Made by a program: the position numbers and the translations under genes
Shown: in pieces, positions 25,561 to 41,049 of the stretch
Layout of the letters: every line of letters begins with the position of its first letter
How positions within the stretch are numbered: position 1 is the first letter of the stretch
The notes under the pieces: model-generated
The model's database searches: none
The model's input: the letters and a program-made list of their open reading frames with translations, nothing else
What the model was told of the DNA's origin: nothing
DNA from: a virus
IMG/VR virus record: IMGVR_UViG_3300034012_002112
Span: 1-58,647 of that record
Direction: 5' to 3' (one strand)
Length of the DNA stretch: 58,647 nt

Positions 25561-25582
25561 TTTACGTCGTGCCCAGGACGGC
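25561..25582 (-). promoter_or_regulatory. Repeated AACGTC...CAGGACG element, copy 1
   Basis: On the plus strand TTTTACGTCGTGCCCAGGAC, a variant of the element found at four other sites (28713, 29852, 38849, 41028). It lies between a stop and the start of the small membrane protein gene. A CTCCGC-TTGCA-GTGGAG hairpin is adjacent. Function unknown. Confidence 0.55.
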
Positions 25583-25598
25583 TCCACTGCAAGCGGAG

Positions 25599-25841
25599 TT
25601 AGTCTACCAGCTCTGTCAAGTCCTGATACCAGTCGGGAATTTCTTCCCCCAAGACTTCAGCACAGGCAGCATGGAGGGCAGACATAACAAAAGCCTTCTG
25701 CCCTTCTTCACCCCAGCTGGTCCAGAGTGCTAGATCAGGATCAGTATCATCCCATTCGATATGAATGGTGCAGCTACCGTCTTCCTCATCAATCACCTCG
25801 ATCTTTAGCTTTTCTGTCCAGTTCGTGTTCGACATGGCCAA
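25599..25841 (-). CDS. Hypothetical acidic protein (80 aa)
   Basis: Begins MAMSNTNWTEKLKIEVIDEE and has TIHIEWDDTDPDLALWTSWG. Acidic, with a beta strand then helices. A second Met (MSNTNW) is an alternative start. It overlaps the upstream gene by 53 bases. Family unknown. Confidence 0.65.
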   Translation of the reverse strand: MAMSNTNWTEKLKIEVIDEEDGSCTIHIEWDDTDPDLALWTSWGEEGQKAFVMSALHAACAEVLGEEIPDWYQDLTELVD

Positions 25842-26100
25842 TTAGTACGTTTTGTGCGTAATCCTCATGATGCATCTTAAGGTCAGCTGCTAACTTAACC
25901 AGCTCCCAGTGAGTATCCTCTGGGACTTCAAGGTCATAACGTGTGTTGGGTTTCATGCGAGGTTGAGTTGCAAGTTGACGGGCGTAATCAAAAATGTCAT
26001 CGTCATCGGTTGGCGTGACATGCAGTTGTGTTGATGGGCACGTTGTACCCAAACGAAACTTCTCAATTCTTGCTGTGGAAAAGATTAAATCATTTGTCAT
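25789..26100 (-). CDS. Hypothetical protein (103 aa)
   Basis: Starts MTNDLIFSTARIEKFRLGTT and ends with a helical VKLAADLKMHHEDYAQNVLI region. It is coupled to the SWIM-like gene by a four-base overlap. No domain recognised. Confidence 0.62.
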   Translation of the reverse strand: MTNDLIFSTARIEKFRLGTTCPSTQLHVTPTDDDDIFDYARQLATQPRMKPNTRYDLEVPEDTHWELVKLAADLKMHHEDYAQNVLIGHVEHELDRKAKDRGD

Positions 26101-27041
26101 TTCTTAATAACAGATTGGAGTTGAGGTAGTGCAATGCCAGGGAATGGAACGTAGCCAGCCTCCAGCATATTGAAGAACAAATCCCAGGCATCGTTCTGTG
26201 TGAACACTTCTTTGGGTTTGTAGGTACGCCAGTGGGTCAGTGGAGCCTGTGCTCCTGACTTGGTGTGCAGCAGAACAAAACGTCCATCACTGTGGGCATC
26301 AGAAGGTGGCGCATACCACCAGGCCACACACTTATCAGGCACACCACTGGGGCTAGCATTCCGTGCTTCTGTGCGTTTGCACAGCAACTCACGGTATTTG
26401 TGGAACCAGGTCAGATGGATACACCAGGGTCGGAAGCCTTGGATCTCCTTCTGGAATTCCGAAACATTAAGAAGCTGACGCTGAAAGGACCCACATGAGC
26501 AATAAGGTTCAAGAGCGACGGGCGGTACACCTGCGACTTCCTCCTCCATGTTAGACTCCAAGTCCACGGGCCGATTCGGAAGCCGCATCCCATCCGGCGC
26601 CACCAGATGTCCAAGGTCCGCCTGGTCCGACTGCAGGAGGGCAGTGAGTTTGGCAGGATCTGATAGGTGTATAAATTTGTCTGCCCAATGCGCCTGTAAT
26701 TGGGCGTTGGCTGTGATGTGTCCGAGTGCATGGGAATAGTGCCAGCCTTTAAACATAATGTAGGCATTGTGATGCCAGATGCTTGGACCCCTGTAGTTCG
26801 GTCCTAAGTAAGCAAAGAAATCCTTCAGCCGATTGCTGTAATCCATGAAGGCATGTTGGATCAGCGGCCTGTTGTAAGTCTGCTCACTACCATCCCTACG
26901 CACCACAAGGCAAGAATCATCTCGCAGATAAATGCCGGAGATGTCGCTGTCATCAAAATCCTTGAACGCACGCCGGAGGTTCGTCCGCGTGTAGATGCAC
27001 GCCTGCGCTGCGTTGAGTTCCTGGAGCGTTTCCGTTGACAT
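26097..27041 (-). CDS. SWIM-like zinc-binding protein
   Basis: A 314-residue protein. A segment CSCGSFQRQ followed 20 residues later by FRPWCIHLTW gives a C-x-C...C-x-H pattern, the signature of SWIM zinc fingers, which bind DNA or protein. Other parts (TYNRPLIQHAFMDYSNRLKD, WWYAPPSDAHSDGRFVLLHT) match nothing I know. A DNA or host-protein binding role is possible. It is the first gene of a five-gene block with overlapping ends. Confidence 0.65.
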   Translation of the reverse strand: MSTETLQELNAAQACIYTRTNLRRAFKDFDDSDISGIYLRDDSCLVVRRDGSEQTYNRPLIQHAFMDYSNRLKDFFAYLGPNYRGPSIWHHNAYIMFKGWHYSHALGHITANAQLQAHWADKFIHLSDPAKLTALLQSDQADLGHLVAPDGMRLPNRPVDLESNMEEEVAGVPPVALEPYCSCGSFQRQLLNVSEFQKEIQGFRPWCIHLTWFHKYRELLCKRTEARNASPSGVPDKCVAWWYAPPSDAHSDGRFVLLHTKSGAQAPLTHWRTYKPKEVFTQNDAWDLFFNMLEAGYVPFPGIALPQLQSVIKK

Positions 27042-27044
27042 GAT

Positions 27045-27058
27045 TTGAATTGAGTTGA
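27045..27058 (-). promoter_or_regulatory. CTCAACTCAATTCAA-type leader
   Basis: TTGAATTGAGTTGA on the plus strand reads TCAACTCAATTCAA in the transcript, ending four bases before the ATG at 27041. There is no Shine-Dalgarno site. The same leader recurs before at least eight other minus-strand genes (see findings). Confidence 0.55.
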
Positions 27059-27065
27059 GGTTGAA

Positions 27066-27272
27066 TCAGATGAAGAGGTCCGTGTCCTGGTCCTCTTGCC
27101 CTTTGAGTTTAGACGACGGTTGGGCGTTTGCATAAGCGCTTTTAGCAATCCGATAGGTTGCGTAGGCCAGTGCACCCCAGGCAACGGGGTTACCAACGAC
27201 TGCAAGAATACCGGCACCTACAACACCAAAGGTACCGGCTGTAACAATTGCAGCTTTTTCTTTAGGTTTCAT
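27066..27272 (-). CDS. Small membrane protein with Gly/Ala-rich helix
   Basis: A 68-residue protein from MKPKEKAAIVTAGTFGVVGA, containing GILAVVGNPVAWGALAYATY as one or two membrane helices and a polar, acidic tail ending DTDLFI. Could be a host-membrane protein. An upstream ATG at 27314 adds residues that do not look natural and would overlap the divergent gene. Confidence 0.65.
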   Translation of the reverse strand: MKPKEKAAIVTAGTFGVVGAGILAVVGNPVAWGALAYATYRIAKSAYANAQPSSKLKGQEDQDTDLFI

Positions 27273-27314
27273 GTGTTTGAGTAGAATTAAAATGAAGTGT
27301 TCGGTGGTGTACAC

Positions 27315-27581
27315 ATGGAAATCAAGTACGTCCCGCTTAATAAATTCCAGATTGAACCTTCAATGGAAGATAAGTTCTGGGAAGAAAAGATCAAACGTTC
27401 CATAGAAGAATGTAATTCGGTAAGTACCTTGAAAGAAATGGCGACCCTCTTGGCGAGGATCGCCACTCAACGTCAAGGTGTAATCCGTGGATTAGTTCAA
27501 GACATGTTCATCTTCAACAATGTTGCAGTTGAACAGGATGACCTGACTAATCCAGATATCCCGAACGGGAATAAACCTTAG
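27315..27581 (+). CDS. Small hypothetical protein (88 aa), plus strand
   Basis: Starts MEIKYVPLNKFQIEPSMEDK and includes SVSTLKEMATLLARIATQRQ and GVIRGLVQDMFIF. The middle helix LKEM..LL.RI..QRQG..RGLV is well formed, so I take it as real even though all neighbours are on the other strand. It overlaps the end of the next minus-strand gene by four bases. Confidence 0.68.
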   Translation: MEIKYVPLNKFQIEPSMEDKFWEEKIKRSIEECNSVSTLKEMATLLARIATQRQGVIRGLVQDMFIFNNVAVEQDDLTNPDIPNGNKP

Positions 27582-28684
27582 AGAGAAGCATCCTCTCCGG
27601 TCATTTCATCCCGAGCGGGAAGAGCTTTGACATCTACAGGATCTGTGGTGCGAGAGACAGGAAGAATCTCGACGCCGTCCTTGATGCCATAAGCACCACC
27701 CAGTTTGTCAGCATCCTGCTTGGCATGGATGTTGATGTAATCATTGAACAGTTCCTGGAACTTCCAGGTTGATTCCCGATCTTCATCAGGAATTGACATG
27801 CGGCTCAACGATTCGATGGCATCTTCCTGAGTGCTGTAATCAGGGATGTCAAAAGATTCGATTGCGCAGATCTCAACGTTGTTGGCTCCACGCATCTCAT
27901 TGGCAAGTACCGGAGCAAATACGGTAGTGGCGTAGAACTTTTCATTGAAGCTCAGGGGGACTTCAGCATCCAGTGCTTTGCTCAGGCACTTGGACATTTC
28001 CTTTTCATACAGACGCACCTTCTCAGATACATCAGTACCATTCAATCCCTTCAGGGTTAACACCATCGGGATCTTGTGGGCACGCTTGTTGTCCTGAGTC
28101 AGGATGTACACAAGGTATTTGGTACGCACGCTATAGCGGCGCTTGTACATTTCACCTTTGCTGTTGGCAAGGTCAGATGCAACCTTGTCATCATCAAACA
28201 GTGCTTTGACCTCAGGGTTCTCAAAGGTACCAATGGTCTGGCGCATACCACTGGTCTCTTCCACCATCAGGGGAGAACGCAGCAGGATCTGGAGGCGAGG
28301 CTCAGTAAAGTTCAGGCCTTCCTCAACGGAGGTGTTAGGCGCCATGCCAAAGGTCTGCTTGTAGTTCCAGATCACAGAACCCTTGGCAAAGTCAGATTCC
28401 TCTGCAGTCCAGCCGCAGGTGTCCAAATCGGACTTACGGACAAACCAACCACGAACCTTGGACTTGTTCAAAGGTTGGATGGTTACCAGGTTCTGGTAGC
28501 CAGAGACAAACTCTTTGGACTGGAACATCTTGAAAGATTCCAGACCACGGGTAGCGAGTGCCGAGGTTTTCTTCACGGTCATTTTGTTGGAGGTTTTCAA
28601 AGAAGGGGCAGAGTTAGGGGCAGAGTCAAGGGAAGACTCGAGTTCATCCATCCAGGATTCACTCATCATGTCAGTTGGAGTCAT
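27578..28684 (-). CDS. Conserved protein, possibly DUF5895-like
   Basis: A 368-residue protein with VRGWFVRKSDLDTCGWT, TEPRLQILLRSPLMVEET, YSVRTKYLVYILTQDNKR and KIPMVLTLKGLNGTDVSEKV. I recall a cyanobacterial domain of unknown function with this layout, but am not certain. It lies next to SSB in the replication block, so a role in DNA metabolism is plausible. An N-terminal Ser-rich 40 residues is probably disordered. Confidence 0.6.
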   Translation of the reverse strand: MTPTDMMSESWMDELESSLDSAPNSAPSLKTSNKMTVKKTSALATRGLESFKMFQSKEFVSGYQNLVTIQPLNKSKVRGWFVRKSDLDTCGWTAEESDFAKGSVIWNYKQTFGMAPNTSVEEGLNFTEPRLQILLRSPLMVEETSGMRQTIGTFENPEVKALFDDDKVASDLANSKGEMYKRRYSVRTKYLVYILTQDNKRAHKIPMVLTLKGLNGTDVSEKVRLYEKEMSKCLSKALDAEVPLSFNEKFYATTVFAPVLANEMRGANNVEICAIESFDIPDYSTQEDAIESLSRMSIPDEDRESTWKFQELFNDYINIHAKQDADKLGGAYGIKDGVEILPVSRTTDPVDVKALPARDEMTGEDASL

Positions 28685-28712
28685 GGTCAGGTCTGAGTTT
28701 GGGTAGTGGTGC

Positions 28713-28734
28713 TTTTAACGTCATCCCAGGACGG
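28713..28734 (-). promoter_or_regulatory. Repeated AACGTCAT...CAGGACG element, copy 2
   Basis: On the plus strand TTTTAACGTCATCCCAGGAC then GG, lying 30 bases before the start of the gene at 27578-28684. The TGA stop of the upstream gene (28721) lies inside the element, so it has constrained the end of that coding sequence or arrived after it. Confidence 0.6.
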
Positions 28735-29023
28735 GGTCAGAGTCTACCTCCTCTGGATCAGGGTTCTGTTCCATTTGCTTCTTTTCTTCATATTGGAAGT
28801 ATTCGTCAGCAATCTCTCGCATGCAGCTGTAGATCACTGAATCGTAGTGACCGCAACCACGCAAGAAATCAACAACATGACGAACAATGTTGTCACAAAA
28901 TACTTCCTGAAATGTTGTCAGGTTCTGGCTATTGCCATCCTGATGCAACAGATAGAAGGTGTCATGAGGAAGCTCCTCATTAACTGGAAGAATAAAATCA
29001 AATCCAACCTTTTCTTTTTCCAT
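28721..29023 (-). CDS. Hypothetical protein (100 aa)
   Basis: Starts MEKEKVGFDFILPVNEELPH and contains VFCDNIVRHVVDFLRGCGHY and a Gln/Glu-rich acidic end. It abuts the SSB gene (stop and start overlap by one base, TAATG type). Function unknown; probable replication accessory protein. Confidence 0.65.
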   Translation of the reverse strand: MEKEKVGFDFILPVNEELPHDTFYLLHQDGNSQNLTTFQEVFCDNIVRHVVDFLRGCGHYDSVIYSCMREIADEYFQYEEKKQMEQNPDPEEVDSDPVLG

Positions 29024-29826
29024 TAGAAAGGCGCCTCCTCCAGCTCAGGTGCTGCACCATATTGACCAGGCAAATCAGGCAGACCAGTGTTGACAGACCA
29101 TGGATCAGTCTCTTCCTCTGCTTGACGCCCGCCCCACAGAGGAGTGACGTTATCCGATGCAACCGTGGTAGATGGCTGAATGGTTTGCGTTGATGGGGTT
29201 GTGCTTCCTTTGGGTGCAAGAGTCATGGAAACCAATTGAATCTTGGTTTGCGACTTCTTATCTCCATTAGCATCCTTCCATGCATCAGTCACCAGCCTGC
29301 CCTGGATAGTTAACCCAGTTCCTTTCTTGGTAAAGTTCACCAGAAGTTCAGCGTTATTAAGCTTATCTTCTGCTGTATTGATGGCATAGAAATTGAAAAG
29401 ATCTGCCTGATTCCTACCTGTATTTACAGACAGGGTTTGATTGCAAATCATCAACCCACTTTCCGTAGTTTTAAACGCCCTGGCATCGTCAGTAGCAATG
29501 TCTTTAACGCAACGGCCGCCGAGGATGACGGTGTTAAGCATCGGAAACTGATCATTGACCTGTACAACAGTGCCGCCATGGAGCGAGTGCGTTCTGCTTT
29601 CAAGGTCGAAGCGTAGCTTTGCGCCGTGAACGTAGATGTAGTTTCCCTTCTTGAGTCTTGAGAAACGCTCAGAGTTCTTTCCATAGATGTTGAGATCGAG
29701 TTGGGTTTGAGCTTTGTTACCAACAGGCGGCAGGATGACCGTGCAACGCATGGCGGTAGATGATGCTGAAGTAAAAACCTCACGCGGATCCTCGGACAGA
29801 TACGCGTAGACGCAAGCAAAGTTCAT
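29023..29826 (-). CDS. ssb: Single-stranded DNA-binding protein, two OB folds
   Basis: A 267-residue protein. Residues 1-90 form one beta-barrel-like unit (FACVYAYLSEDPREVFT, TQLDLNIYGKNSERFSRLKK). Residues 95-205 form a second (NTVILGGRCVKDI, SGLMICNQTLSVNTG, GLTIQGRLVTDAWKD). The C-terminus is acidic and ends PELEEAPF, as in SSB tails that recruit partners. It should cover single-stranded DNA at the phage fork. Two OB units in one chain with weak sequence identity suggest divergence from standard SSB. Confidence 0.75.
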   Translation of the reverse strand: MNFACVYAYLSEDPREVFTSASSTAMRCTVILPPVGNKAQTQLDLNIYGKNSERFSRLKKGNYIYVHGAKLRFDLESRTHSLHGGTVVQVNDQFPMLNTVILGGRCVKDIATDDARAFKTTESGLMICNQTLSVNTGRNQADLFNFYAINTAEDKLNNAELLVNFTKKGTGLTIQGRLVTDAWKDANGDKKSQTKIQLVSMTLAPKGSTTPSTQTIQPSTTVASDNVTPLWGGRQAEEETDPWSVNTGLPDLPGQYGAAPELEEAPF

Positions 29827-29851
29827 GAGTTCAGAAGGTAGGGGTAAGGCA

Positions 29852-29873
29852 GTTTAACGTCATACCTGGGACG
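29852..29873 (-). promoter_or_regulatory. Repeated AACGTCAT...GGGACG element, copy 3
   Basis: On the plus strand GTTTAACGTCATACCTGGGA then CG, 26 bases upstream of the SSB start. Same orientation and spacing to the start codon as the copies at 28713 and 38849. Confidence 0.6.
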
Positions 29874-29879
29874 AAACGC

Positions 29880-30131
29880 CTATTTAATTGTTTCTATTTC
29901 TTCGGTTTTAGCAACATGTTCCACTTCATAATTAATACGTCCGGCAAAAGTGTTTCGTGTTGTAATTCGATAAACAGTACCGTCGTGAACAATTAATTCA
30001 GTGCCAGGCTCTGTTTTATTAGCAAGATTATCAAGATTCCATTTCAATCTCAATACCTCATTGTTTTTCTCTCGATGTTTAAGCCATGCTTTGAATAACT
30101 GTTTAAGAGTTGGTTTGCGTTTGGTTGTCAT
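29880..30131 (-). CDS. Small basic hypothetical protein (83 aa)
   Basis: Start taken as MTTKRKPTLKQLFKAWLKHR, four bases after the polymerase stop. N-terminal half is a basic helix, C-terminal half a beta-strand unit (LIVHDGTVYRITTRNTFAGR). It could be a DNA-binding accessory of the polymerase. An earlier ATG at 30227 reads into polymerase sequence. Confidence 0.6.
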   Translation of the reverse strand: MTTKRKPTLKQLFKAWLKHREKNNEVLRLKWNLDNLANKTEPGTELIVHDGTVYRITTRNTFAGRINYEVEHVAKTEEIETIK

Positions 30132-30135
30132 GGCT

Positions 30136-31956
30136 TTAGTGCGTTTGAGCCCAGGTGCTGCCGACCCGTGAGTCGCCATCAATCTTACAGCGAAATCCAA
30201 AGAATTCCTGCGCTTGTGGGAATGCACGCATGGCTTGTTCTCTGATGGTCTCAGTCAGGTCCTTAGGGCAAGACACCTGGATCTCATCGTGAATCATGGC
30301 GTGTTGAATCCAATGGCGCTCGTGTACTAAACCAAGCTCTGACAAATTGTCATGTAAATTAATAACAACTTGTTTCATGATGAGTGCGCCTGCTGCTTGC
30401 AATAGAAGATTCAATCCTTTGAATTCAGATCGACAAAACAATGCACGTTGATCTAATCCACGTAGATAACCACGGGATTGGATTGTAGATGCAATGTTTT
30501 CTTTCAATGATTTAAGAGCTGGCACACCTTTCATGAATGAATTAATTGCAGAACTTCCTAGTTGACGCAGAACTTCTGGATCTTTTTCATTCGGATTAAT
30601 GATAGTACCTGCCTTCATAGCGCCACATCCATAGAGCATTCCATACAAGAGACGTTTGCTTACGTCCCTGTTATCCACACCAAACTGTTGTTGGTTGTAG
30701 GTATGGATGTCAATGGATTCATCTGTTACCAGACGGGCGTATTCTCCGTCATCCCAGATGGCTAAGTATCCGGCCAAGCAACGTAACTCAAGAGCCTTAG
30801 CATCGACCCCAATAAGGTCCCAACTATGAGGAGCGTGGAAAAGGTTTCGGCATTCTTTTCCATAGGGGGAGTAAGCTGCTGGGACCTGACCCATGTTTGG
30901 ATTGCGGTGTGCGCAGCGCCCGCTAATGCAACCGTTAGTAACCAAATCCCCATGCATACATAGGTCATCGTTGTTAACGAGCTTGAGCCAAGCATTGTTT
31001 CCATCTGCGATTTGTCCCAGACGTTTTTTAACAAGCATGTATTCAGCTAAGGGCTGTGCTTCGGGGTAGGGCAAAGCCGCGAGTATATCGTCGTCAAGTA
31101 TTGGATTTCCTTTTTCCGTTGTTTTTTCAGGCGTCCATCCGTACTTCTGTCGTAGTCGGTCTGCAATTTGAGTACGAGATCCCGGATTGAATTCCTCAAA
31201 GCGAACCTTCGTGAAGGGCTGACCTTTGACATAGCCACGGCTTTTGTTATTCACCTTAGGGATGAACGTTTCCTCATGCCGTATCGGCGGAAACAATTCC
31301 TTTAGGTGGACCTCAAGTTCCGCTTGCTTTGCTCTAAGGACATCCACAAGATCAAGGCATGCATCAATATCAAAAGGAAAGCCTGCTCGAATTTGTCGGT
31401 TAATTGCCAGAGCAAAGTCATGTTCGAGCTTGAGTGCCGGACCTGGGTATTGCTGGGACGCAATGAAGCGCCAGAGTTTGAGGGTGACTTGAACATCCTG
31501 GACGCAGTAGTCCAGCATCTCTTGAGAATATTTGGAGAAGTCTTTGAACTCGATCTTATGATCGGCCAAGCGCCATCCCCATGCCTTAAGAGAAGCGGTT
31601 CCTCGGTTCTTCTTTGGAACCTGCGGATATTGTTCATTGTCCAGTTCCTCCAGAACTTCCTTTGGCCAGATCAATCTGGTGCAAATAAGCGTGTCGATGA
31701 TGCGGCATTTGAGGTTAAATGAATGCAGCTTTTGTAGAACCGGTACGTCATAGAAGATCACATTGTGACCAATGAGTACATCAGCGGTTGCCAGATGAGC
31801 AAGAGCATCATCAATGCGATCAGGCCCATAAGTAAAAGTTTCTGCTCTCGTAATGTCATAGATGACAATGCAGAAAATTTGCGTGACCTTGTCATACAAA
31901 CCATCAGATTCCAGGTCAAAGATCAGCCATGTTTCACTTTCTGAAACGGGCTTCAT
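30136..31956 (-). CDS. Family-A DNA polymerase with 3'-5' exonuclease
   Basis: A 606-residue T7-like enzyme. Exonuclease motifs: WLIFDLESDG (I), VLIGHNVIFYDVP (II), YCVQDVQVTLKLW (III). Polymerase motifs: LIGVDAKALELRCLAGYL (A), RDVSKRLLYGMLYGCGAMKA (B, with the Lys and Tyr) and MIHDEIQVSCP (C, HDE). The start at MKPVSESETW gives 23 bases of overlap with the upstream gene; a start at 31995 is possible. It is the replicative polymerase of this phage. Confidence 0.92.
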   Translation of the reverse strand: MKPVSESETWLIFDLESDGLYDKVTQIFCIVIYDITRAETFTYGPDRIDDALAHLATADVLIGHNVIFYDVPVLQKLHSFNLKCRIIDTLICTRLIWPKEVLEELDNEQYPQVPKKNRGTASLKAWGWRLADHKIEFKDFSKYSQEMLDYCVQDVQVTLKLWRFIASQQYPGPALKLEHDFALAINRQIRAGFPFDIDACLDLVDVLRAKQAELEVHLKELFPPIRHEETFIPKVNNKSRGYVKGQPFTKVRFEEFNPGSRTQIADRLRQKYGWTPEKTTEKGNPILDDDILAALPYPEAQPLAEYMLVKKRLGQIADGNNAWLKLVNNDDLCMHGDLVTNGCISGRCAHRNPNMGQVPAAYSPYGKECRNLFHAPHSWDLIGVDAKALELRCLAGYLAIWDDGEYARLVTDESIDIHTYNQQQFGVDNRDVSKRLLYGMLYGCGAMKAGTIINPNEKDPEVLRQLGSSAINSFMKGVPALKSLKENIASTIQSRGYLRGLDQRALFCRSEFKGLNLLLQAAGALIMKQVVINLHDNLSELGLVHERHWIQHAMIHDEIQVSCPKDLTETIREQAMRAFPQAQEFFGFRCKIDGDSRVGSTWAQTH

Positions 31957-32167: not shown

Positions 32168-32180
32168 GCAAAAGAAGTAA

Positions 32181-32206: not shown

Positions 32207-32223
32207 AACCCTTGCAAGTGTCT

Positions 32224-32994
32224 TCAGGATTTATGTGGATTTAATTTGCCGTATCCCACAAATCCCCCTTCCTTCTTACGTTGAGTCAGGGCTTTCATCG
32301 CATCAGACCCAGCCCTCTGGCTGCCATGCACCAGGAGTGCAAACGGTTTGTCACCCAGGCAGTGGCTGTCGTCATGATCGATCTCCAGTCCTTGCTCAGC
32401 TGCGTCTGCCTCGGTGTAGACCACATGTGCTACACGGGTAAAGACCTTGGGATACTTGGGGATTAGGTAATCGAGAGTACCGCCAAAGGATGCAGTGAGA
32501 TAGAAGTTGGATGGTATGGAATCTTGAAGAGCCAGCCACATGCCTAGTGATTTGGTGTAGGCATAGAACTTCTGTTGTGGCCGCTCTTGTGCCACCATCA
32601 TCCAAGCCTTCATGTAGTTCTCAGTCCAGAAGTCACCTGACTCATGGATACGAACCAGTTGCTTTGGTGGGTGCATCAATAGCGAAAGATCAATTAGATC
32701 ACGCAACAGCTTGGCCTGGTTCCCATTCATGTGAATGGTTTCACGTAGCAGATCCCAGTTGTGCCAACGGGCATCACGTACGTTTGGCCTGACTTCTGCC
32801 ATGGCAGCAAAGCAACGGTAGTCATCAGTTGCTTCGACGCCTGTGTACTGAGGCAGATCAGTGATGGCACCAGTGGTGCGGTCTGCAAATGTCTTGCACA
32901 CACCAGCATGCGGACATGAGTAACCAGCTGGCAGCGAGAAGATCAAACGGTTCTTAAGCTTGCCGTTACCAGTGGAGAACTTAAGGAGTTTCAT
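32224..32994 (-). CDS. GP88-like conserved phage protein
   Basis: A 256-residue protein with FSLPAGYSCPHAGVCKTFAD, HESGDFWTENYMKAWMMVAQ and FYAYTKSLGMWL, features of the 'gene product 88' family of phage proteins of unknown function. Conserved cysteines near the N-terminus may bind metal. It is immediately followed (upstream in transcription) by a small gene and a structured noncoding stretch. Confidence 0.75.
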   Translation of the reverse strand: MKLLKFSTGNGKLKNRLIFSLPAGYSCPHAGVCKTFADRTTGAITDLPQYTGVEATDDYRCFAAMAEVRPNVRDARWHNWDLLRETIHMNGNQAKLLRDLIDLSLLMHPPKQLVRIHESGDFWTENYMKAWMMVAQERPQQKFYAYTKSLGMWLALQDSIPSNFYLTASFGGTLDYLIPKYPKVFTRVAHVVYTEADAAEQGLEIDHDDSHCLGDKPFALLVHGSQRAGSDAMKALTQRKKEGGFVGYGKLNPHKS

Positions 32995-32996
32995 GA

Positions 32997-33221
32997 TCAG
33001 TAGATTTCAGTTGTGTTGAATTGAATTGACCAGTTACTGGCAGCAGTAAACGGAATAGTTCCGTAATACATGCCATCAGAATCCACAAGATCAATCATGA
33101 CCTCATGGGTATCCAGGGAGAATCCAATCCCTGAACACATGTACTGAGCATCGTTCTCATTGATAAGCATTGCCCCCTTAAGGCAATTGATATCAATGGT
33201 ACTAAGACCAAGGATTTCCAT
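32997..33221 (-). CDS. Hypothetical protein (74 aa)
   Basis: Begins MEILGLSTIDINCLKGAMLI and ends YYGTIPFTAASNWSIQFNTT. Beta-rich. The start is preceded by a long CTCAACTCAATTCAATT-type leader and, further up, the structured RNA of 33242-33470. Family unknown. Confidence 0.62.
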   Translation of the reverse strand: MEILGLSTIDINCLKGAMLINENDAQYMCSGIGFSLDTHEVMIDLVDSDGMYYGTIPFTAASNWSIQFNTTEIY

Positions 33222-33224
33222 TGA

Positions 33225-33240
33225 ATTGAATTGAGTTGAG
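33225..33240 (-). promoter_or_regulatory. CTCAACTCAATTCAATT-type leader
   Basis: Plus-strand ATTGAATTGAGTTGAG lies immediately before the ATG at 33221. Read in transcript direction it is CTCAACTCAATTCAAT. No Shine-Dalgarno site. Confidence 0.55.
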
Positions 33241-33470: not shown

Positions 33471-33476
33471 AAAAGA

Positions 33477-33482: not shown

Positions 33483-33488
33483 AGGGTA

Positions 33489-35269: not shown

Positions 35270-35562
35270 TACTCCCCTGGTACTAGTGTGTTCTTCATCA
35301 TGAATAGTAGATCACGCTCATGACAGATGCGCATCTGTGCGTGCTCTGTTGGAGTTTGCAGGTGGTCCCACAAGATGCGTAACATCTTCTGTTTGGAACC
35401 ACGTGCAGTGATCTTCTCACTAAAGCCAACGACCGTACCGTAGCGTTGGCTGCGGTACTGAGCAATGCGTTCTTTGACCTCTGCTCGTACGGTGAATAGG
35501 GCGTGCGTCTTGGGACGCTCTGCCACACGATCACCAACTTGGTAGGTTGATTTGGTTTTCAT
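35269..35562 (-). CDS. Hypothetical beta-barrel-like protein (97 aa)
   Basis: Start MKTKSTYQVGDRVAERPKTH overlaps the stop of the NrdR-like gene (ATGA). Contains YGTVVGFSEKITARGSKQKM and LRILWDHLQTPTEHAQMRIC. The VGDRV...GTVVGF...ILWD pattern resembles small SH3-like barrels. Function unknown. Confidence 0.65.
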   Translation of the reverse strand: MKTKSTYQVGDRVAERPKTHALFTVRAEVKERIAQYRSQRYGTVVGFSEKITARGSKQKMLRILWDHLQTPTEHAQMRICHERDLLFMMKNTLVPGE

Positions 35563-35909
35563 GATTCGTACCAGGTGCAATCAGAAGATTCAGGAGTGTC
35601 GTATTCAGGGAAGTCATAGGTGCATTGCTTGCCATTGTTATGGATGCAATCAGTACACAATGATTCTTCTGTTTTGATTTCAGTTGGTTGTGTGTTAAGC
35701 AGTTTATAAAACTGGCTAACCAAAAGCAGATTCTGTTTTGCTTCCTCAAAGAAATCAGCGGTGACTTCATGAGTAGTAAAACGTGCTTCGCAATAATCAC
35801 ATTGTTTACGCCGACGCGTAGACAAATGTGTTTGTCTGCTTTCGATAACACGCAAACCAGGTTGTTTGCAGTTGGGACATTCAGGAAGAAGCGTCTTCTG
35901 AAAGGCCAT
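35559..35909 (-). CDS. NrdR-like zinc ribbon without ATP cone
   Basis: A 116-residue protein. Residues 11-50 read CPNCKQPGLRVIESRQTH and RRRKQCDYCEARFTTHEV, very close to the NrdR zinc ribbon (CP-x-C ... VI-(D/E)-SR ... RRR ... C-x2-C-x-RFTT). The ATP cone of true NrdR is absent. The C-terminus has a second Cys set (SLCTDCIHNNGKQCTYD). It may act at host or phage ribonucleotide-reductase promoters or be an unrelated ribbon. It is in the thyX group. Confidence 0.75.
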   Translation of the reverse strand: MAFQKTLLPECPNCKQPGLRVIESRQTHLSTRRRKQCDYCEARFTTHEVTADFFEEAKQNLLLVSQFYKLLNTQPTEIKTEESLCTDCIHNNGKQCTYDFPEYDTPESSDCTWYES

Positions 35910-36331
35910 TACTCCGGATCAATGGATGAAGGTGCACTATTGGTACGTGCTTGTTCTTCTGCTTCTCGTTTAGCTTTTGGTACAGGCAACTTGTCCAGCT
36001 GCAATGAATCCAGGATGTACAAGGTTGCTTCTTCTCCCTTGATACGGAACATATCAGGGATGATCTCCATAGGATTCTGGAGATAGTAATCAGTTAAATA
36101 CATCTCACACATACGAAACATTGTTTCGACAGGGAGTTCATCAACGATATTGGAAACTGCTGCATCAAGGACAGCAGGCCACGTATGACGAGGGACTAAC
36201 TCAATTACTTTGAGTACCAGATCCATATCCACTTCTGCAGGAGTAGGGATATCTTTCTGTAACTCTTCTTGATATGGTTCAGGTAGTTGATCTTGTTCTT
36301 GAGCTAGTGATGGGTCAGGGTTGAGTTTCAT
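35909..36331 (-). CDS. Hypothetical acidic protein (140 aa)
   Basis: Start taken as MKLNPDPSLAQEQDQLPEPY, just below the terminator of the preceding gene. The middle (VIELVPRHTWPAVLDAAVSN, FRMCEMYLTDYY) is helical. The C-terminal part is basic then acidic. Function unknown. A start further up at 36367 would place the terminator stem inside the gene. Confidence 0.62.
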   Translation of the reverse strand: MKLNPDPSLAQEQDQLPEPYQEELQKDIPTPAEVDMDLVLKVIELVPRHTWPAVLDAAVSNIVDELPVETMFRMCEMYLTDYYLQNPMEIIPDMFRIKGEEATLYILDSLQLDKLPVPKAKREAEEQARTNSAPSSIDPE

Positions 36332-36360
36332 AAGAAAGAGCCCCCGCTTGCGCAGGGGCC
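36332..36360 (-). terminator. Terminator-like hairpin
   Basis: On the minus strand GCCCCTGC-GCAA-GCGGGGGC, with one mismatch, followed by TCTTTCTT. It lies between the gene at 36380 and the next one and should cut or attenuate the transcript coming from the tRNA side. Confidence 0.75.
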
Positions 36361-36379
36361 TGAACATTCCGGACTGATA

Positions 36380-36742
36380 TTAGGCAGGTTGGGCACTGGT
36401 GTCCACTACCTGGTCCATCAAACCTGCGTCTTTGAGGCGATCCAGCATGCCGCACATGATGGTGGCATGGGCATGGGTTTGTTCCATGAACATCTGTGCT
36501 CGCTCTGCGGACATGGTGTGGACACGACCGCAGGGCTCCACATATTTCCAGCTGCCATCAGGCTGGGGATCACCTTGGAGGGCAAGACGCTCTGAGTTTC
36601 GAACGTACCGTAGTTCGAGGTTGTGATAATCCTTAAGGCCGTCAGCGGCTGTCCAGGTTGCACCAATGTTGTACCTCTGATCTTCGTCAGAGTAAGCATG
36701 GAACTCAGGGATGAGGTTGCGAAAAGCGGAAAGGAATTGCAT
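36380..36742 (-). CDS. Hypothetical protein (120 aa)
   Basis: Begins MQFLSAFRNLIPEFHAYSDE and contains YHNLELRYVRNSERLALQGD and a final helix with SAERAQMFMEQTHAHATIMC. No family recognised. It follows tRNA-Leu by 22 bases and has a CAACTCAATTCA leader. Confidence 0.62.
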   Translation of the reverse strand: MQFLSAFRNLIPEFHAYSDEDQRYNIGATWTAADGLKDYHNLELRYVRNSERLALQGDPQPDGSWKYVEPCGRVHTMSAERAQMFMEQTHAHATIMCGMLDRLKDAGLMDQVVDTSAQPA

Positions 36743-36763
36743 TGTTGTAATGAATTGAGTTGG

Positions 36764-36836
36764 TACCCGAGGTGGGATTCGAACCCACGCTGGAACGATT
36801 TTAAGTCGTTTGCCTCTTCCGCTGGGCTACTCGGGC
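36764..36836 (-). tRNA. tRNA-Leu(UAA), class I shape
   Basis: A clean 73-base cloverleaf. Acceptor GCCCGAG/CTCGGGT (G1-U72 wobble), D arm with GCC/GGC and GG in the loop, anticodon arm AACGA-CTTAAAA-TCGTT, a five-base variable loop CCAGC, T arm GTGGG-TTCGAAT-CCCAC, A73, then an encoded CCA (36763-36761). The anticodon UAA reads Leu codons UUA and UUG. Normal bacterial tRNA-Leu has a long variable arm, which is missing here. It overlaps the stop of the upstream gene by ten bases. Confidence 0.9.
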
Positions 36837-37045
36837 GCACCTGGGCTTACCTCTACATCAATCGATGTTGAGTGCCAGGTGTGGTCTTGGGGTAATGGCT
36901 CAGTGCCATACTCCCATGTATCGTAATCTTCCTCATTGCGTGGGTCTTCTTCGACCAGAACGTAATGAGGTGAGTTGTCATGGATGAATTCTCCGATGTT
37001 GGCCATGGCCATAGCTAGGAGTTGATCATCGGTGTAGTCAGTCAT
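36827..37045 (-). CDS. Hypothetical acidic protein (72 aa)
   Basis: Start MTDYTDDQLLAMAMANIGEF, acidic throughout, with HYVLVEEDPRNEEDYDTWEY. The stop lies inside the first bases of the tRNA-Leu sequence on the same strand, an unusual overlap of a coding end and a mature tRNA. A hairpin at 37054-37085 precedes the start. Function unknown. Confidence 0.62.
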   Translation of the reverse strand: MTDYTDDQLLAMAMANIGEFIHDNSPHYVLVEEDPRNEEDYDTWEYGTEPLPQDHTWHSTSIDVEVSPGAPE

Positions 37046-37053
37046 GAGGTAAG

Positions 37054-37085
37054 GACCAGCCCTAGTATCGAGGCTAAGGCTGGTC
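37054..37085 (-). promoter_or_regulatory. Strong hairpin upstream of 36827-37045 gene
   Basis: GACCAGCC pairs with GGCTGGTC with inner TAG/CTA pairs. No T run follows on either strand. It is nine bases upstream of the start at 37045, so it could affect initiation or mark the end of the PcfJ-like message. Confidence 0.45.
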
Positions 37086-37101
37086 AACTTGGGCTCGGCC
37101 G

Positions 37102-38814
37102 TCAGGACTGTAGCGCAGATTCACGCTCTTGCAATGCAAGCCGGAATGCTGCGGTGTACTGATCCTTCTGGTCGTCTGTCAACCGTTGGTTGGCGATACC
37201 AGCGATCTGTTTGACTGACATCATGCCCATATCAACAGTAAGTTGAATGGTGAATTGAGGTTTGCCATCAAGCATACAAAGCACAATGAAGTGCTTCTTC
37301 TTCTTGCAATCCTCAGCGTAGTGGGAAGCAGAGCCAACGCAATTGCGTACGGCCTGACCCCACATAGCTAGTTGATGAGTGTCAACAGGCTGGAAGAATG
37401 ACCATGATTGATCATCAAGAGTGACACGAACGGGCTGAGGGAATAAATCCTGGGGCAACCCTTCGTTTGGATTCTTGATCTTCCAAGCTTCTGCCTGGAT
37501 GTGATCATGGAATTCTTCAATGCGCCAACGTTTGGGTGGTTCGACAGTGACGCCAGCATCTAAGATGCGAGAAAGCATGGACAAAGTATCTGTCCAATCA
37601 CTGAATGTGAACTGATAACACTTAAGGTCACTGTCAAAGATATAACCATACTTACGTTCTTCTGCTTCTTTTAGTGCAGCTCGATAGTATTTATCAAGCA
37701 TATTGAAGTAAGAAGCTACATGCATGTGTTGCTTTAGCCATGCGACTGCCAATTCGTTAGCACCCTGGCGCAAACGAATGTTAAGCATGGCATCTAAGTT
37801 GGTTTGATAGTAGTCAAGAGGTGCGTCAGGCCACAGTGCATTCACAGAGTTAATGCTGTAGCACAGGTGTGCAATCTGTTTCCATGGCGCACGAATGTTA
37901 CTGGCATGCGTATTGTCTGGATCGTTGTATTGTTTAATGGCTTCATCGCAACGCTCTTGAATCCACCGACGGAAAAACGGTTTGTCAATAATGTGACGGA
38001 TGCGTTGTACATCTTTGTACTCACATCCTTCATAACCAGATTGGTTAAAGTAATAATCAACGATACGGAAGAAGTTATCTGCAGAAGGCAGCCACTCTTC
38101 CTTGTTAACAGCGCCGCTGTTGAAGTAAGCAGGCAAGCGTAGTTCCAATGCATCTACAATGCATGTGGTACGAATACGATCAAACATATTCCTGGTATCT
38201 TGCCAGGTTGGAATTGTGACACGCAATTGATCTTCGAATTGACCAATTGCTTCAGAGATACTACGTGCTTTCTGGTAATAGCTAGCCACACCAGGTGCAC
38301 GCCAGTGGCGTTCTTCATTGCCATTGCGAACGTCATACTTATTGATGAGGCGTGAATGATAATAGATCTGACTGCGACCTACGGTGCGGCAATCAAATTC
38401 ATGGCGTTGATTCCAGAAACGATTAGGAACAACTTTGGCTGAGGCCTCAGTATCTTTAAATGCAACGGCATAGCCATAAAGATAATTATCTTCTTGTCCT
38501 TTGGGAGGCAACCAAGCTGCATACCAGCACTGTTCAAAGTGATACAGAATGGCGTAGGGTACTAGTGTCTGATCCTTGAAACGAGTGAACAGTTGGTAGC
38601 GATCTGCTACACCAACGGAGTTGATGTGGTTGGTTGCATCCTGATGAATAGATTCAGGCATTATCTCCCTGGGAATCAAGTCATTGATATTGCCCAGGGG
38701 ATACTTAGCCTTCTTGGTTTGTGTCTTGGGTTTGTTCTGCTGTGCCAGCTTTTTCAGCGTGGGATCATAGGCCAGCAGTTCGGTCTGAAGGTTGGAGGGG
38801 AGTTGGAAATGCAT
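37102..38814 (-). CDS. PcfJ-like protein
   Basis: A 570-residue protein. The C-terminal 130 residues match the PcfJ-like domain: THQLAMWGQAVRNCVGSASH, then YAEDCKKKKHFIVLCMLDGK, then FTIQLTVDMGMMSVKQIAGI and NQ. PcfJ-like proteins are found in conjugative elements and phages, with no clear biochemical role. The N-terminal 430 residues are unrelated to anything I recognise. It is a long single gene with its own copy of the repeated 22-base element upstream. Confidence 0.75.
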   Translation of the reverse strand: MHFQLPSNLQTELLAYDPTLKKLAQQNKPKTQTKKAKYPLGNINDLIPREIMPESIHQDATNHINSVGVADRYQLFTRFKDQTLVPYAILYHFEQCWYAAWLPPKGQEDNYLYGYAVAFKDTEASAKVVPNRFWNQRHEFDCRTVGRSQIYYHSRLINKYDVRNGNEERHWRAPGVASYYQKARSISEAIGQFEDQLRVTIPTWQDTRNMFDRIRTTCIVDALELRLPAYFNSGAVNKEEWLPSADNFFRIVDYYFNQSGYEGCEYKDVQRIRHIIDKPFFRRWIQERCDEAIKQYNDPDNTHASNIRAPWKQIAHLCYSINSVNALWPDAPLDYYQTNLDAMLNIRLRQGANELAVAWLKQHMHVASYFNMLDKYYRAALKEAEERKYGYIFDSDLKCYQFTFSDWTDTLSMLSRILDAGVTVEPPKRWRIEEFHDHIQAEAWKIKNPNEGLPQDLFPQPVRVTLDDQSWSFFQPVDTHQLAMWGQAVRNCVGSASHYAEDCKKKKHFIVLCMLDGKPQFTIQLTVDMGMMSVKQIAGIANQRLTDDQKDQYTAAFRLALQERESALQS

Positions 38815-38848
38815 GGTGAGTTCGGAGTGAGTTCGTAGTTGGTGAGCA

Positions 38849-38870
38849 GTTTAATGTCATGCTCAGGACA
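38849..38870 (-). promoter_or_regulatory. Repeated AATGTCAT...CAGGACA element, copy 4
   Basis: On the plus strand GTTTAATGTCATGCTCAGGA then CA, 35 bases upstream of the PcfJ-like start and directly before the stop of the next gene. Confidence 0.6.
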
Positions 38871-38879
38871 ATTGGTTAA

Positions 38880-39059
38880 TCAGTCATCTTCACGCCACTC
38901 ATCCGCAAGTATTGCAGAGTAAGTGTCGTCGATGTTGTATGTATCAACGGGTGTCATAACTGGCATCCGTTTTGCAAATCCAGTGGCAAGATAAACTCTG
39001 CCCCTGGGGCCACGCAGTACAAAGTACCAGCGTTTAAATTCAATTGAGAAACCAATCAT
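38880..39059 (-). CDS. Hypothetical protein (59 aa)
   Basis: Start MIGFSIEFKRWYFVLRGPRG in an ATGA overlap with the upstream gene. A beta-hairpin-like first half (WYFVLRGPRGRVYLATGF) and an acidic second half. Function unknown. Confidence 0.6.
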   Translation of the reverse strand: MIGFSIEFKRWYFVLRGPRGRVYLATGFAKRMPVMTPVDTYNIDDTYSAILADEWREDD

Positions 39060-39316
39060 GAATCTAAATCCCAATCGGAGGTGTCGATGAGTTGCCAGTT
39101 AAGATCGAGTGAATCAAGATAGCTACAGAAGCCATCTTCGTCAGTAGGGATCTGTTCTCCTTCATCCAGCTCGAAAGAAGCTGTGCATAATGCAGGAGCC
39201 CATTCCTCAGGGTCGAGATGAGTTGCTTTGTAGAGCAGACGCATGTCGTCCACAACTGCTGTAACTGTGACATCAGATCCATTGATTGTTGTGTCCTCGA
39301 TTGCAAGTACAGTCAT
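39056..39316 (-). CDS. Hypothetical acidic protein (86 aa)
   Basis: Begins MTVLAIEDTTINGSDVTVTA and has an acidic middle with ELDEGEQIPTDEDGFCSYLD. Both ends overlap neighbouring genes (TAATG at the start, ATGA at the end). Beta-rich. Function unknown. Confidence 0.62.
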   Translation of the reverse strand: MTVLAIEDTTINGSDVTVTAVVDDMRLLYKATHLDPEEWAPALCTASFELDEGEQIPTDEDGFCSYLDSLDLNWQLIDTSDWDLDS

Positions 39317-39501
39317 TAGTTTGGTTCAATGAATTGACATGCAGGTGTGATGTAACACCGATACTTAGACCAGGTGCGTACTGTGGTGTACTCACCGTGA
39401 AATCGATCAGTGTCACATACGTACATCTCCGCCCTGCGCACAGCGCAGTTGGCGATGTGAATACGATCAAACAATGTGAGGCAATCGGTTGCAGTTGACA
39501 T
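39316..39501 (-). CDS. Hypothetical Cys-containing protein (61 aa)
   Basis: Starts MSTATDCLTLFDRIHIANCA and contains AEMYVCDTDRFHGEYTTVRT and CYITPACQ. Five cysteines. It has a CTAATTCAACTC-type leader and overlaps the next start. Function unknown. Confidence 0.6.
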   Translation of the reverse strand: MSTATDCLTLFDRIHIANCAVRRAEMYVCDTDRFHGEYTTVRTWSKYRCYITPACQFIEPN

Positions 39502-39509
39502 GAGTTGAA

Positions 39510-39716
39510 TTAGAAATCAAAGAGTTTGATGTTGCGCTTGGACAAGCCGGTGCCTGGAATCGAAATCGATCCCAATACACCAGACTTACGGGCGTTCAGC
39601 GTTAGCTGAAACGGTCCAAGCTGAATGGATTTAGTGTAACTTTTGACGCCATGTTCGGTGATGTTGACACCGTGTATTGTGCGATCAAAGTTAAATCCAG
39701 ACTTGGGTTCTGACAT
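39510..39716 (-). CDS. DUF4236-like small protein (68 aa)
   Basis: The part LGPFQLTLNARKSGVLGSIS and IPGTGLSKRN resembles the core of the DUF4236 fold (GPF...LN.SK.G......IPGTGLS). The family has no known function but is common in phages and mobile DNA. The leader before the ATG is CTCAACTCAGCTCAAC. Two overlapping hairpins lie further up. Confidence 0.6.
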   Translation of the reverse strand: MSEPKSGFNFDRTIHGVNITEHGVKSYTKSIQLGPFQLTLNARKSGVLGSISIPGTGLSKRNIKLFDF

Positions 39717-39738
39717 AGTGTTGAGCTGAGTTGAGTGA

Positions 39739-39776
39739 GGACTTGAAGTCTACCAGCGATGTCAAGTCCCTGGTAG
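39739..39776 (-). promoter_or_regulatory. Two mutually exclusive perfect hairpins
   Basis: In transcript order the segments are CTACCAG, GGACTTGA, CATCG, CTGGTAG, ACT, TCAAGTCC. The first pairs with the fourth (seven pairs) and the second with the sixth (eight pairs), so the two helices interleave. With no bases between the first two segments both cannot easily form at once, so this looks like an attenuator or switch ahead of the DUF4236-like gene. A related GGACTTGACA-x-GCTGGTAGACT sequence is found at the end of the gene at 25599. Confidence 0.5.
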
Positions 39777-39805
39777 GTTTAAAGATTCTCTTAATGTTTC
39801 GTAAA

Positions 39806-40042
39806 TCAAATTCCAGCAAGGCTGGGTTCGTACTCAGGGCTGGGATCGTAATCAATCCGTTCTTCTAACATTGCAATCGCTTCTTCTATTACTTCGTCAT
39901 CACCTGGGACCAGATGCTGACAAGTACATGAGCGCTTGCTTTCACGTTCGAGAACAGCTTTGAGTAGATCCACTGCTTCTTTCAGTTTGACATACTCATT
40001 TGATTTCCAGTCAATGGTTGGGTATGTAGTTGGGGTAGTCAT
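39806..40042 (-). CDS. Hypothetical helical protein (78 aa)
   Basis: Starts MTTPTTYPTIDWKSNEYVKL and contains KEAVDLLKAVLERESKRSCT and an acidic end. Probably one long helix pair with two Cys and a His (CTCQH), perhaps a zinc site. Function unknown. Confidence 0.6.
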   Translation of the reverse strand: MTTPTTYPTIDWKSNEYVKLKEAVDLLKAVLERESKRSCTCQHLVPGDDEVIEEAIAMLEERIDYDPSPEYEPSLAGI

Positions 40043-40188
40043 GGTGATGTGATGGGAATGAGAGGGTAGGTAGATGGGAGGTTATCTACTAATAAAAGGA
40101 TTATTCCTGGTACTCCCCTTCGGGGGTCTGGGGGGGGGAATGCTTGGTAGCTATCCAAGAGATTCCTCCTTCGGGATATAAGTAAAAC
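40043..40188. other. Noncoding gap with nine-G tract and C/G hairpin
   Basis: No gene on either strand. CCCC-TTCG-GGGG at 40115-40126 could fold with a UUCG loop. A run of nine G (40130-40138) follows, a site for slippage. AT-rich sequence lies on both sides. Possible terminator or transcript-processing region, unproven. Confidence 0.4.
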
Positions 40189-40440
40189 TTATGTGTTGGT
40201 TGGTTCTTTGATGATCCAACCTGTGTAGTGATTAGTGGTTCGATCAACGGATATCAACTTGTATTGTTCAAGCTTCTCCAATGCCTTGAGGTATTGTTCA
40301 AGCCTGGTAGCTTGCATGTTTATCCTTGGTACGAAACATGGATTGAGACCATGCTTCTTCTTGTGTACCAAGTAGTAATTGTACAAATTGCGTTGATTGA
40401 TAGTCAGTGCTGGCATCTGATTCTGTAGTTGCGTTGACAT
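40189..40440 (-). CDS. Possible winged-helix-like small protein (83 aa)
   Basis: Begins MSTQLQNQMPALTINQRNLY and contains RLEQYLKALEKLEQYKLISV then a short beta end (TTNHYTGWII). The helix-helix-strand order with a LEKLEQYKLI turn is like a winged helix, so DNA binding is possible. Weak evidence only. Confidence 0.55.
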   Translation of the reverse strand: MSTQLQNQMPALTINQRNLYNYYLVHKKKHGLNPCFVPRINMQATRLEQYLKALEKLEQYKLISVDRTTNHYTGWIIKEPTNT

Positions 40441-40779
40441 TTAGATCAAGCCGAGAATCCTAAGCCAGCTGTCGGGATGGTCCGGTTCGACTTCGTCTTC
40501 ACCTGGCGTGAAGCAGACGCTGTCGAACGCCCACTCCTCAATCTCTTCGTTGGTTGGGATGTCGTACCAACCTTCGAGTTCTTTGTCTCCATAGACGGGG
40601 ATCCAGTAACATCTGAGGATTCCCTGCTTGTTTCTGTAGACGTTGCCAGTGCAGGCGATGGCGCCTTTCGGTGCGTTCTGGAAGTCGCACTCTGCCTGGT
40701 ACTGTTGCTGCCCTTCTTCTTGGTCGAAGGGTTCGTACCCGAAGGTGGCAGCGATTTCTTCAGTGATGGGGTGAAGCAT
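40441..40779 (-). CDS. Hypothetical protein (112 aa)
   Basis: Starts MLHPITEEIAATFGYEPFDQ and has IACTGNVYRNKQGILRCYWI and PVYGDKELEGWYDIPTNEEI. Beta-rich and acidic. It directly abuts the next gene. Function unknown. Confidence 0.62.
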   Translation of the reverse strand: MLHPITEEIAATFGYEPFDQEEGQQQYQAECDFQNAPKGAIACTGNVYRNKQGILRCYWIPVYGDKELEGWYDIPTNEEIEEWAFDSVCFTPGEDEVEPDHPDSWLRILGLI

Positions 40780-40851
40780 GAGATGAATTCTGTAATGAAA
40801 ATTGAAATGAGTGTGATGATGACAATGATGATGTCATCCTGTGGGCGTTGA

Positions 40852-40995
40852 TCAGCCGTCTTCGTCGTCATGAATAACGCCCTCCCATTCGTATTGGTTT
40901 GATTCCATCATTGCTTGATATTGTTCTGCTGCCATGTCAGCCATGGCATCAAGAGCATCAGATGGAATATCATTCTCAAATTGATTGTTGTCCAT
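40852..40995 (-). CDS. Tiny acidic protein (47 aa)
   Basis: Reads MDNNQFENDIPSDALDAMAD, then MAAEQYQAMMESNQYEWEGV. An acidic amphipathic helix. The leader is CAACTCAATTCAAACC and a copy of the repeated 22-base element lies 35 bases upstream, which together support it as an expressed gene. Confidence 0.6.
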   Translation of the reverse strand: MDNNQFENDIPSDALDAMADMAAEQYQAMMESNQYEWEGVIHDDEDG

Positions 40996-40998
40996 GGT

Positions 40999-41012
40999 TT
41001 GAATTGAGTTGA
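40999..41012 (-). promoter_or_regulatory. CAACTCAATTCAA-type leader
   Basis: Transcript-strand TCAACTCAATTCAA lies four bases before the ATG at 40995. It is one of the clearest copies of the leader and lies right after the repeated 22-base element at 41028-41049. Confidence 0.55.
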
Positions 41013-41027
41013 TAAAAGGATTGAGAA

Positions 41028-41049
41028 GTTTAACGTCATACTCAGGACG
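41028..41049 (-). promoter_or_regulatory. Repeated AACGTCAT...CAGGACG element, copy 5
   Basis: On the plus strand GTTTAACGTCATACTCAGGA then CG, upstream of the tiny gene at 40852-40995. Best match to the group consensus. Confidence 0.6.

Follow-up and report, generated by a model that had tools for sequence, protein, structure and literature searches.

What are the short repeats that stand before several minus-strand genes in the viral record IMGVR_UViG_3300034012_002112 (58,647 nucleotides (nt), analysed over its full length and called the window below)? An earlier reading of this DNA, the original prediction, had listed five copies of a 22-base element, all in the same orientation before minus-strand genes, and had proposed either a promoter or operator or a signal in the mRNA. 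The comparative evidence described here indicates that the element is 28 nt long and is an intercistronic RNA pseudoknot that folds in the mRNA sense, rather than a DNA signal.

All five copies are present, all on the minus strand before minus-strand genes, at coordinates that had been given to within 1-2 bases (Table 1). Approximate matching to the 22-mer pattern with at most 3 mismatches recovered four of them (25560, 29853, 38850 and 41029) against a chance expectation of 0.02; the copy near 28713 is genuine, has one base fewer and was detected solely by a weight matrix. The five copies reach 25-35 bits in this matrix, and the sixth-ranked site in the window has 10 bits; since the matrix was trained on the same five copies, its informative part is the drop to the sixth site. 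A structural scan of the window yielded 5 minus-strand matches, 4 of which are known copies, as compared with 0-1 per strand in shuffled sequences. However, the 22-mer proved not to be the complete element, as six more nucleotides follow downstream that vary in sequence and pair with the middle of the 22-mer.

Read as mRNA, the element runs CGUC-C-UGAGUA-U-GACG-UUAAAC plus six variable bases, and because these 3’ bases pair with the middle of the loop the result is an H-type pseudoknot. Its 28 nt follow a 4-1-6-1-4-6-6 layout, with a stem 1 of 4 base pairs (bp), a loop 1 of a single C, a stem 2 of 6 bp, a junction base that is mostly U, C or A, and a loop 3 of UUAAAC or UAAAAC. The outer pair of copy 2 is U-A where the other copies have C-G, a compensatory change, and its stem 2 (UGAGCA/UGCUCA) is perfect. 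For the variant copy 4, homologous leaders in relatives (e.g. loci L012, L031 and L051) offer a possible GGAU/AUCC pairing.

Table 1. Pseudoknot copies, the genes that follow them and neighbouring features of the window (aa, amino acids; ORF, open reading frame)
Feature	Position	Strand	Sequence or match	Context
Pseudoknot copy 1	41022..41049	-	CGUC-C-UGAGUA-U-GACG-UUAAAC-UUCUCA	38 nt from upstream stop; 26 nt to ATG of 47-aa acidic ORF
Pseudoknot copy 2	38843..38870	-	UGUC-C-UGAGCA-U-GACA-UUAAAC-UGCUCA	upstream ORF stop 9 nt before; PcfJ-like ORF 28 nt after
Pseudoknot copy 3	29846..29873	-	CGUC-C-CAGGUA-U-GACG-UUAAAC-UGCCUU	upstream ORF stop (29880) 6 nt before; SSB 19 nt after
Pseudoknot copy 4, variant	28706..28733	-	CGUCCUGGGAUGACGUUAAAAGCACCAC; loop shorter by one nt, stem 2 weak (UGG/CCA)	encloses TGA (28,721-28,723) of upstream 100-aa ORF 28721-29023; DUF5895 ORF 21 nt after
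Pseudoknot copy 5	25553..25580	-	CGUC-C-UGGGCA-C-GACG-UAAAAC-UACCCA	upstream ORF stop 18 nt before; 39-aa membrane peptide 23 nt after
47-aa acidic peptide	40852..40995	-		after copy 1; behind an element in 4 loci
PcfJ-like protein	37102..38814	-	Pfam PF14284 E 5.6e-6	after copy 2
SSB	29023..29826	-	Pfam PF00436 E 5.7e-12; PHROG 44 E 3.3e-28	after copy 3
DUF5895 protein	27578..28684	-	Pfam PF19247 E 2.5e-12; 79% identity to S-EIV1 AHV82172	after copy 4
39-aa hydrophobic peptide	25410..25529	-	MFESLIGTLLPVLKDLLWTAAAALLAYTLNKIQSHFNTI	after copy 5; kept behind an element in 70 loci
Hairpin	41050-41065	-	GGGGTG-GTAT-CACCCC	directly upstream of copy 1
Hairpin	~25582-25598	-	CTCCGC-TTGCA-GTGGAG	directly upstream of copy 5
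Starts with C/A/T leaders, no Shine-Dalgarno	27027-27053, 33003-33029, 33213-33239, 40987-41012, 42763-42788	-	TCAACTCAATTCAA type

To follow the element across relatives, we used the DUF5895 and PcfJ proteins as queries and assembled 89 related viral loci; at the nucleotide level the module had no megablast match among phage records, and relatives were recovered by protein. The sole isolate relative found was Synechococcus phage S-EIV1 from a high-arctic lake, whose DNA polymerase is 70% and DUF5895 protein 79% identical, and the phage of this window is a freshwater cyanophage related to it. S-EIV1 carries at least 6 copies, two of which bring new outer pairs (AGUC/GACU and GGUC/GACC). We collected 102 distinct 28-mers from S-EIV1-family relatives and aligned 100 of them against the pseudoknot structure. 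Paired cells amounted to 93.4%, versus 83.2% after shuffling, compensatory double changes occupied 120 cells versus 37 in shuffles, and the covariation score was 0.384 versus 0.188 in shuffles, of which 0/500 reached the observed score; slid registers collapsed the score to 0.02-0.09. Among relatives, the outer pair of stem 1 occurs as CG, UA, GC and AU. These sequence comparisons strongly support the view that the 28-nt element is an RNA pseudoknot whose two interleaved stems are both under selection.

The same fold occurs well beyond this family. Our search pattern for unrelated phages fixed stem 1, loop 1 and loop 3 only, leaving the 3’ strand of stem 2 free, and it was found in many viral contigs, among them 41 loci that resemble neither S-EIV1 nor the window in any protein. 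The free tail formed 5 or 6 pairs in 28/36 distinct 28-mers from phages unrelated to S-EIV1, versus about 1.2 expected for random tails. A permuted-tail control is weak within one family, since tails and loops are similar in composition there, and it was replaced by random-tail and mismatched-stem controls. When the IMG/VR collection was scanned with a matched stem, CGAC..GTCG, at least 120 stretches were obtained, versus 2 with the mismatched CGAC..GACG, neither with a good stem 2; in a whole-collection scan, matched UGUC..GACA gave at least 119 stretches versus 27 for the C..A mismatch. A good stem 2 is retained at most sites with the C..A mismatch, which indicates that the outer pair tolerates a mismatch. 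The pairing-only contrasts in stem 1 provide the strongest evidence of this analysis.

Searches by blastn with the 28-mers, together with annotated regions, placed copies in named phages of very different hosts. In Staphylococcus phages 80 and B236 the element, here with a CGAC/GUCG stem, separates the head-morphogenesis gene from the GP20 scaffold gene, and in Lactobacillus phig1e, phiEF-1.1, Streptococcus Javan271 and the thermophilic phage D6E it likewise precedes scaffold genes, as does a copy amid phage head genes on a Ligilactobacillus megaplasmid. It is also found in the marine T4-like S-H35, Moorella MTATph1 and Microcystis Mwe-JY13, in Mycobacterium phage Labelle (loop 3 AAAAAC) and in Paracoccus phage ParMal1 (mismatched outer pair), while E. 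coli phage phiEcoM-GJ1 retains stem 2 with an imperfect stem 1. Several Gram-positive phages have a second, distinct hairpin or pseudoknot (e.g. CGTGGCGTTGCACGTAAAACTCG) in the stretch from the pseudoknot to the Shine-Dalgarno sequence of the scaffold gene (L498, Staphylococcus phage 80, ~1250-1275; also L499, L502, L506 and L214).

Where do these copies lie relative to neighbouring genes? Within the S-EIV1 family the distance between the upstream stop codon and the element peaks sharply at exactly 5 nt (~70/168 sites), with hardly any sites closer, and that from element to ATG has its mode at 19-22 nt, the commonest layout being stop, 5 nt, knot, 20 nt, ATG. For all five window copies the ATG of a minus-strand ORF lies 19-28 nt past the end of the element; that one copy contains the stop of the upstream gene, as originally predicted, is also correct (copy 4). 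None of 99 sites in unrelated phages has a stop gap below 4 nt; the gap lies between 4 and 15 nt in 41% of cases versus 2.9% of random positions, and again has a mode of 5, while the next ORF start at these sites is spread out, from 4 to more than 150 nt away. The set with CGAC stems has stop gaps mostly of 5-17 nt, with two values below 5. The length of the spacer is conserved but its sequence is not, and neither stop codon identity nor reading frame is conserved. The element appears to sit as near to the upstream stop as a terminating ribosome should allow.

Individual copies also adjoin RNA-processing sites. In Arthrobacter phage Molivia the element starts 5 nt after the SSB stop and is followed 2 nt later by tRNA-Gly; in Nostoc phage NMeng1 the element precedes a tRNA, and loci L155 and L456 have a tRNA-knot-tRNA arrangement. 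On phage contig L461 (1241-1315, minus strand) a type I hammerhead ribozyme (E 2.7e-6; 31 bits, slightly below the Rfam cut-off of 34) starts almost directly past a pseudoknot copy whose outer pair is C-A.

This positioning bears on three alternative explanations. The knot could be a ribosome insulator that blocks sliding or reinitiating ribosomes past the stop, such that downstream genes need fresh initiation or are uncoupled, and the sharp minimum of ~5 nt from the stop, as well as the ~20 nt to the AUG in the S-EIV1 family, would suit this. A gap of ~5 nt is near the distance at which a frameshift pseudoknot meets a ribosome with a codon in its A site. Yet the copies beside tRNAs and the hammerhead lack a close downstream start that could be insulated, and we regard insulation alone as an improbable account, though one to be taken seriously. 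The same spacing suits recoding pseudoknots, which raises the question of stop readthrough or frameshifting at the upstream stop. Luteovirus-type frameshift pseudoknots (e.g. that of beet western yellows virus) are of the same size class, with a short C-containing loop 1, an A-rich loop 3 and a spacer of ~5-6 nt from the A site. The new element differs in lacking a slippery site or a conserved frame relation: the frame of the downstream ATG is unconserved (47/30/26), readthrough extensions range from 0 to at least 12 codons, all three stop codons occur, and neither conservation nor a slippery site is seen in the spacer. A recoding signal is therefore very hard to credit.

A DNA-level promoter or operator, the other half of the original proposal, has in its favour that a conserved sequence recurs upstream of genes, and that one copy has even been annotated as such: the pseudoknot carries the label of a BPROM promoter, probably a misannotation, in the B236 record KP893290 (L499 1193-1231) and similar records of Staphylococcus phages. 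However, a DNA site does not explain the crossed compensatory changes in both stems, the fixed spacing to upstream stops or the copies that abut tRNAs; moreover, the element has no -10 or -35 box and is the same across phages of very different hosts. We give a promoter or operator hardly any weight, and of the two options originally put forward the mRNA signal is the one upheld, by the crossed-helix covariation, the gene-sense orientation and the stop-codon register.

The genes downstream of the window copies suggest another possibility. Their predicted identities were confirmed, DUF5895, SSB and PcfJ by Pfam and the remaining two as a hydrophobic 39-aa and an acidic 47-aa peptide. The concern that relatives might keep these genes yet lose the element is mainly dispelled, since it is retained upstream of 67/81 SSB, 34/37 DUF5895, 68/73 GP88, 28/31 membrane peptide and 23/29 PcfJ orthologues. 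Leaders past the element are nearly free of G (3-6% G) and A/C-rich, with AGGA/GAGG-like motifs in 8/174. Phage T4 gene 32, which encodes an SSB, is repressed through a knot upstream of it (PMC535899), and its TGCC-A-GCTATG-A-GGTA-AAGTGT-CATAGC fits the same 28-nt 4-1-6-1-4-6-6 geometry (an alternative drawing has a 7-bp stem 2). The T4 knot precedes an SSB gene, much as the copy at 29846-29873 does here; it is followed by an unstructured leader, and its 5’ part overlaps an upstream ORF (PMC535899). The phage SSB, or another phage RNA-binding protein, could bind the knot, spread over the leader as an unstructured landing strip, and repress SSB and a small regulon. The two systems also differ. 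Loop 1 and loop 3 are A and AAGUGU in T4, versus C and UUAAAC here, and the T4 leader, whose knot starts 67 nt before the AUG, has UUAAA repeats and a Shine-Dalgarno sequence that are absent here. Furthermore, T4 has the knot at one gene per phage, whereas the new element is multi-copy, stands before several genes in many phage families and mostly not before SSB. Many unrelated phages have it before scaffold genes or tRNAs, where control by SSB would make little sense, in Molivia it comes after SSB, and outside the S-EIV1 family its placement tracks the stop codon rather than the start codon. Because the T4 repeats and Shine-Dalgarno sequence are absent and binding by SSB is putative, we do not class the element as a gp32-type operator, and we consider such an operator unlikely, if a credible contender. 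By analogy, the T4 gene 32 pseudoknot may belong to a general class together with the new element.

Comparison with other known RNAs yielded no family. No Rfam 15 family matched at the gathering threshold in the window, at E<=10 around copy 2 or at E<=1 in the named phages, and no description of the element was found in the literature searched, which took in neither the list of 224 candidate RNAs from 2017 nor the genome paper on S-EIV1; the pseudoknot is apparently so far undescribed. The preQ1-I riboswitch, located in leaders, is a pseudoknot of the minimal H-type whose loop 3 is A-rich. The small fold, A-rich third loop and 5’ leader location of the new element resemble it and could suggest a metabolite- or ion-sensing riboswitch, but there is no model match, the single-base loop 1 is cramped for a pocket, the downstream genes share no pathway and some copies precede tRNAs, all of which makes this reading quite improbable. 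The STAXI motif (RF01728), also a pseudoknot, likewise lies close to SSB and further genes for DNA handling (PMC2864571). It differs in being tandem (2-3 copies), often with UUCG tetraloops, and in occurring in Enterobacteriales, whereas the new element is found mostly as single units, as in the window, and is not matched by the RF01728 model.

Matches in bacterial genomes form a separate group. In a scan that returned 107 stretches, 26/93 distinct 28-mers paired well versus 7.4 with permuted tails, and these matches are mostly due to chance. On the reverse strand of L291 (Candidatus Phytoplasma vitis, ~3900-4250) there are tandem degenerate pseudoknot copies, some with stems that are changed yet matching (e.g. 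CATC..GATG), an array that contrasts with the single copies in phages. At anaerobe loci L224, L230, L243, L271 and L219 the match extends over the last part of a short conserved ORF that carries an AHC..GC motif, and coding conservation, rather than a phage element, may lie behind these matches. Anaerolineae contigs L242, L259, L279, L284 and L289 carry a near-identical copy, CGTCCTGGCTGTGACGTTAAACCAGCC, after a short gene, with unrelated sequence downstream. None of the bacterial matches checked with Rfam lies inside a tmRNA, which disposes of the tmRNA pseudoknot as a candidate. An intrinsic terminator was also rejected: no T-run follows the window copies, and a run of five T within 14 nt occurs at 4/174 related and 14/97 other-phage sites.

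We rank the alternatives, in falling order, as an SSB-bound operator, a ribosome insulator, a riboswitch, a recoding signal and a promoter. The reading we prefer, while holding it a little short of evenly balanced, is that the element is an intercistronic boundary pseudoknot that would both insulate cistrons and make a nuclease-resistant end. The knot would stay folded between ribosomes that finish the upstream cistron and those that start on the downstream one. Polycistronic phage RNA would be cut beside it, whether by RNase E or Y, by a ribozyme or, where a tRNA adjoins, by RNase P, and at the cut RNA the knot would form a nuclease-resistant end at which exonucleases are stopped. The decay and the ribosomes of one cistron would thereby be kept out of the next; in the window, SSB and the four other genes would be set off from their upstream neighbours within the minus-strand replication module. 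Copies adjacent to tRNAs and the hammerhead best fit protection of the 3’-end of the upstream message. The T4 gene 32 case would, by analogy, fit 5’-end protection: RNase E cuts its mRNA at -71, 4 nt upstream of the knot (from -67), and this is the most stable T4 mRNA (PMC3014915).

Several observations weigh against a boundary function. The T4 analogue is linked in the literature to translational repression by gp32, the stability of its message is aided by translation and may not need the pseudoknot, and RNA on the upstream side of the T4 cut decays rapidly. Not all orthologous genes retain the element; the window’s own GP88-like gene (32224-32994) lacks it where S-EIV1 and most relatives have it. 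The copies at 25580 and 41049 are 18 and 38 nt away from the stop, that at 28733 overlaps one, and compact phage genomes alone could place intergenic elements near stops. Adjacency to tRNAs and to the ribozyme consists of single examples: ARAGORN, run over 169 unrelated loci, made one tRNA call within 200 nt, and with no such enrichment the tRNA link is limited to individual cases.

More broadly, and somewhat more tentatively than the boundary function itself, we propose that the element may represent an undescribed and very widespread end cap or boundary pseudoknot of tailed phages (of Firmicutes, Actinobacteria, Cyanobacteria, Proteobacteria and others), placed ~5 nt past stops and at tRNA or ribozyme processing sites to give exonuclease-resistant ends, with the T4 gene 32 knot as a specialised member. 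If true, phages would possess a general post-transcriptional device that has escaped annotation, being left blank or labelled a promoter, and the T4 gene 32 pseudoknot would be placed in a broader setting. A module of 28 nt able to withstand ribosomes or nucleases would be a useful tool, and in the phages themselves it could help account for the unequal amounts of protein made from compact polycistronic RNAs.

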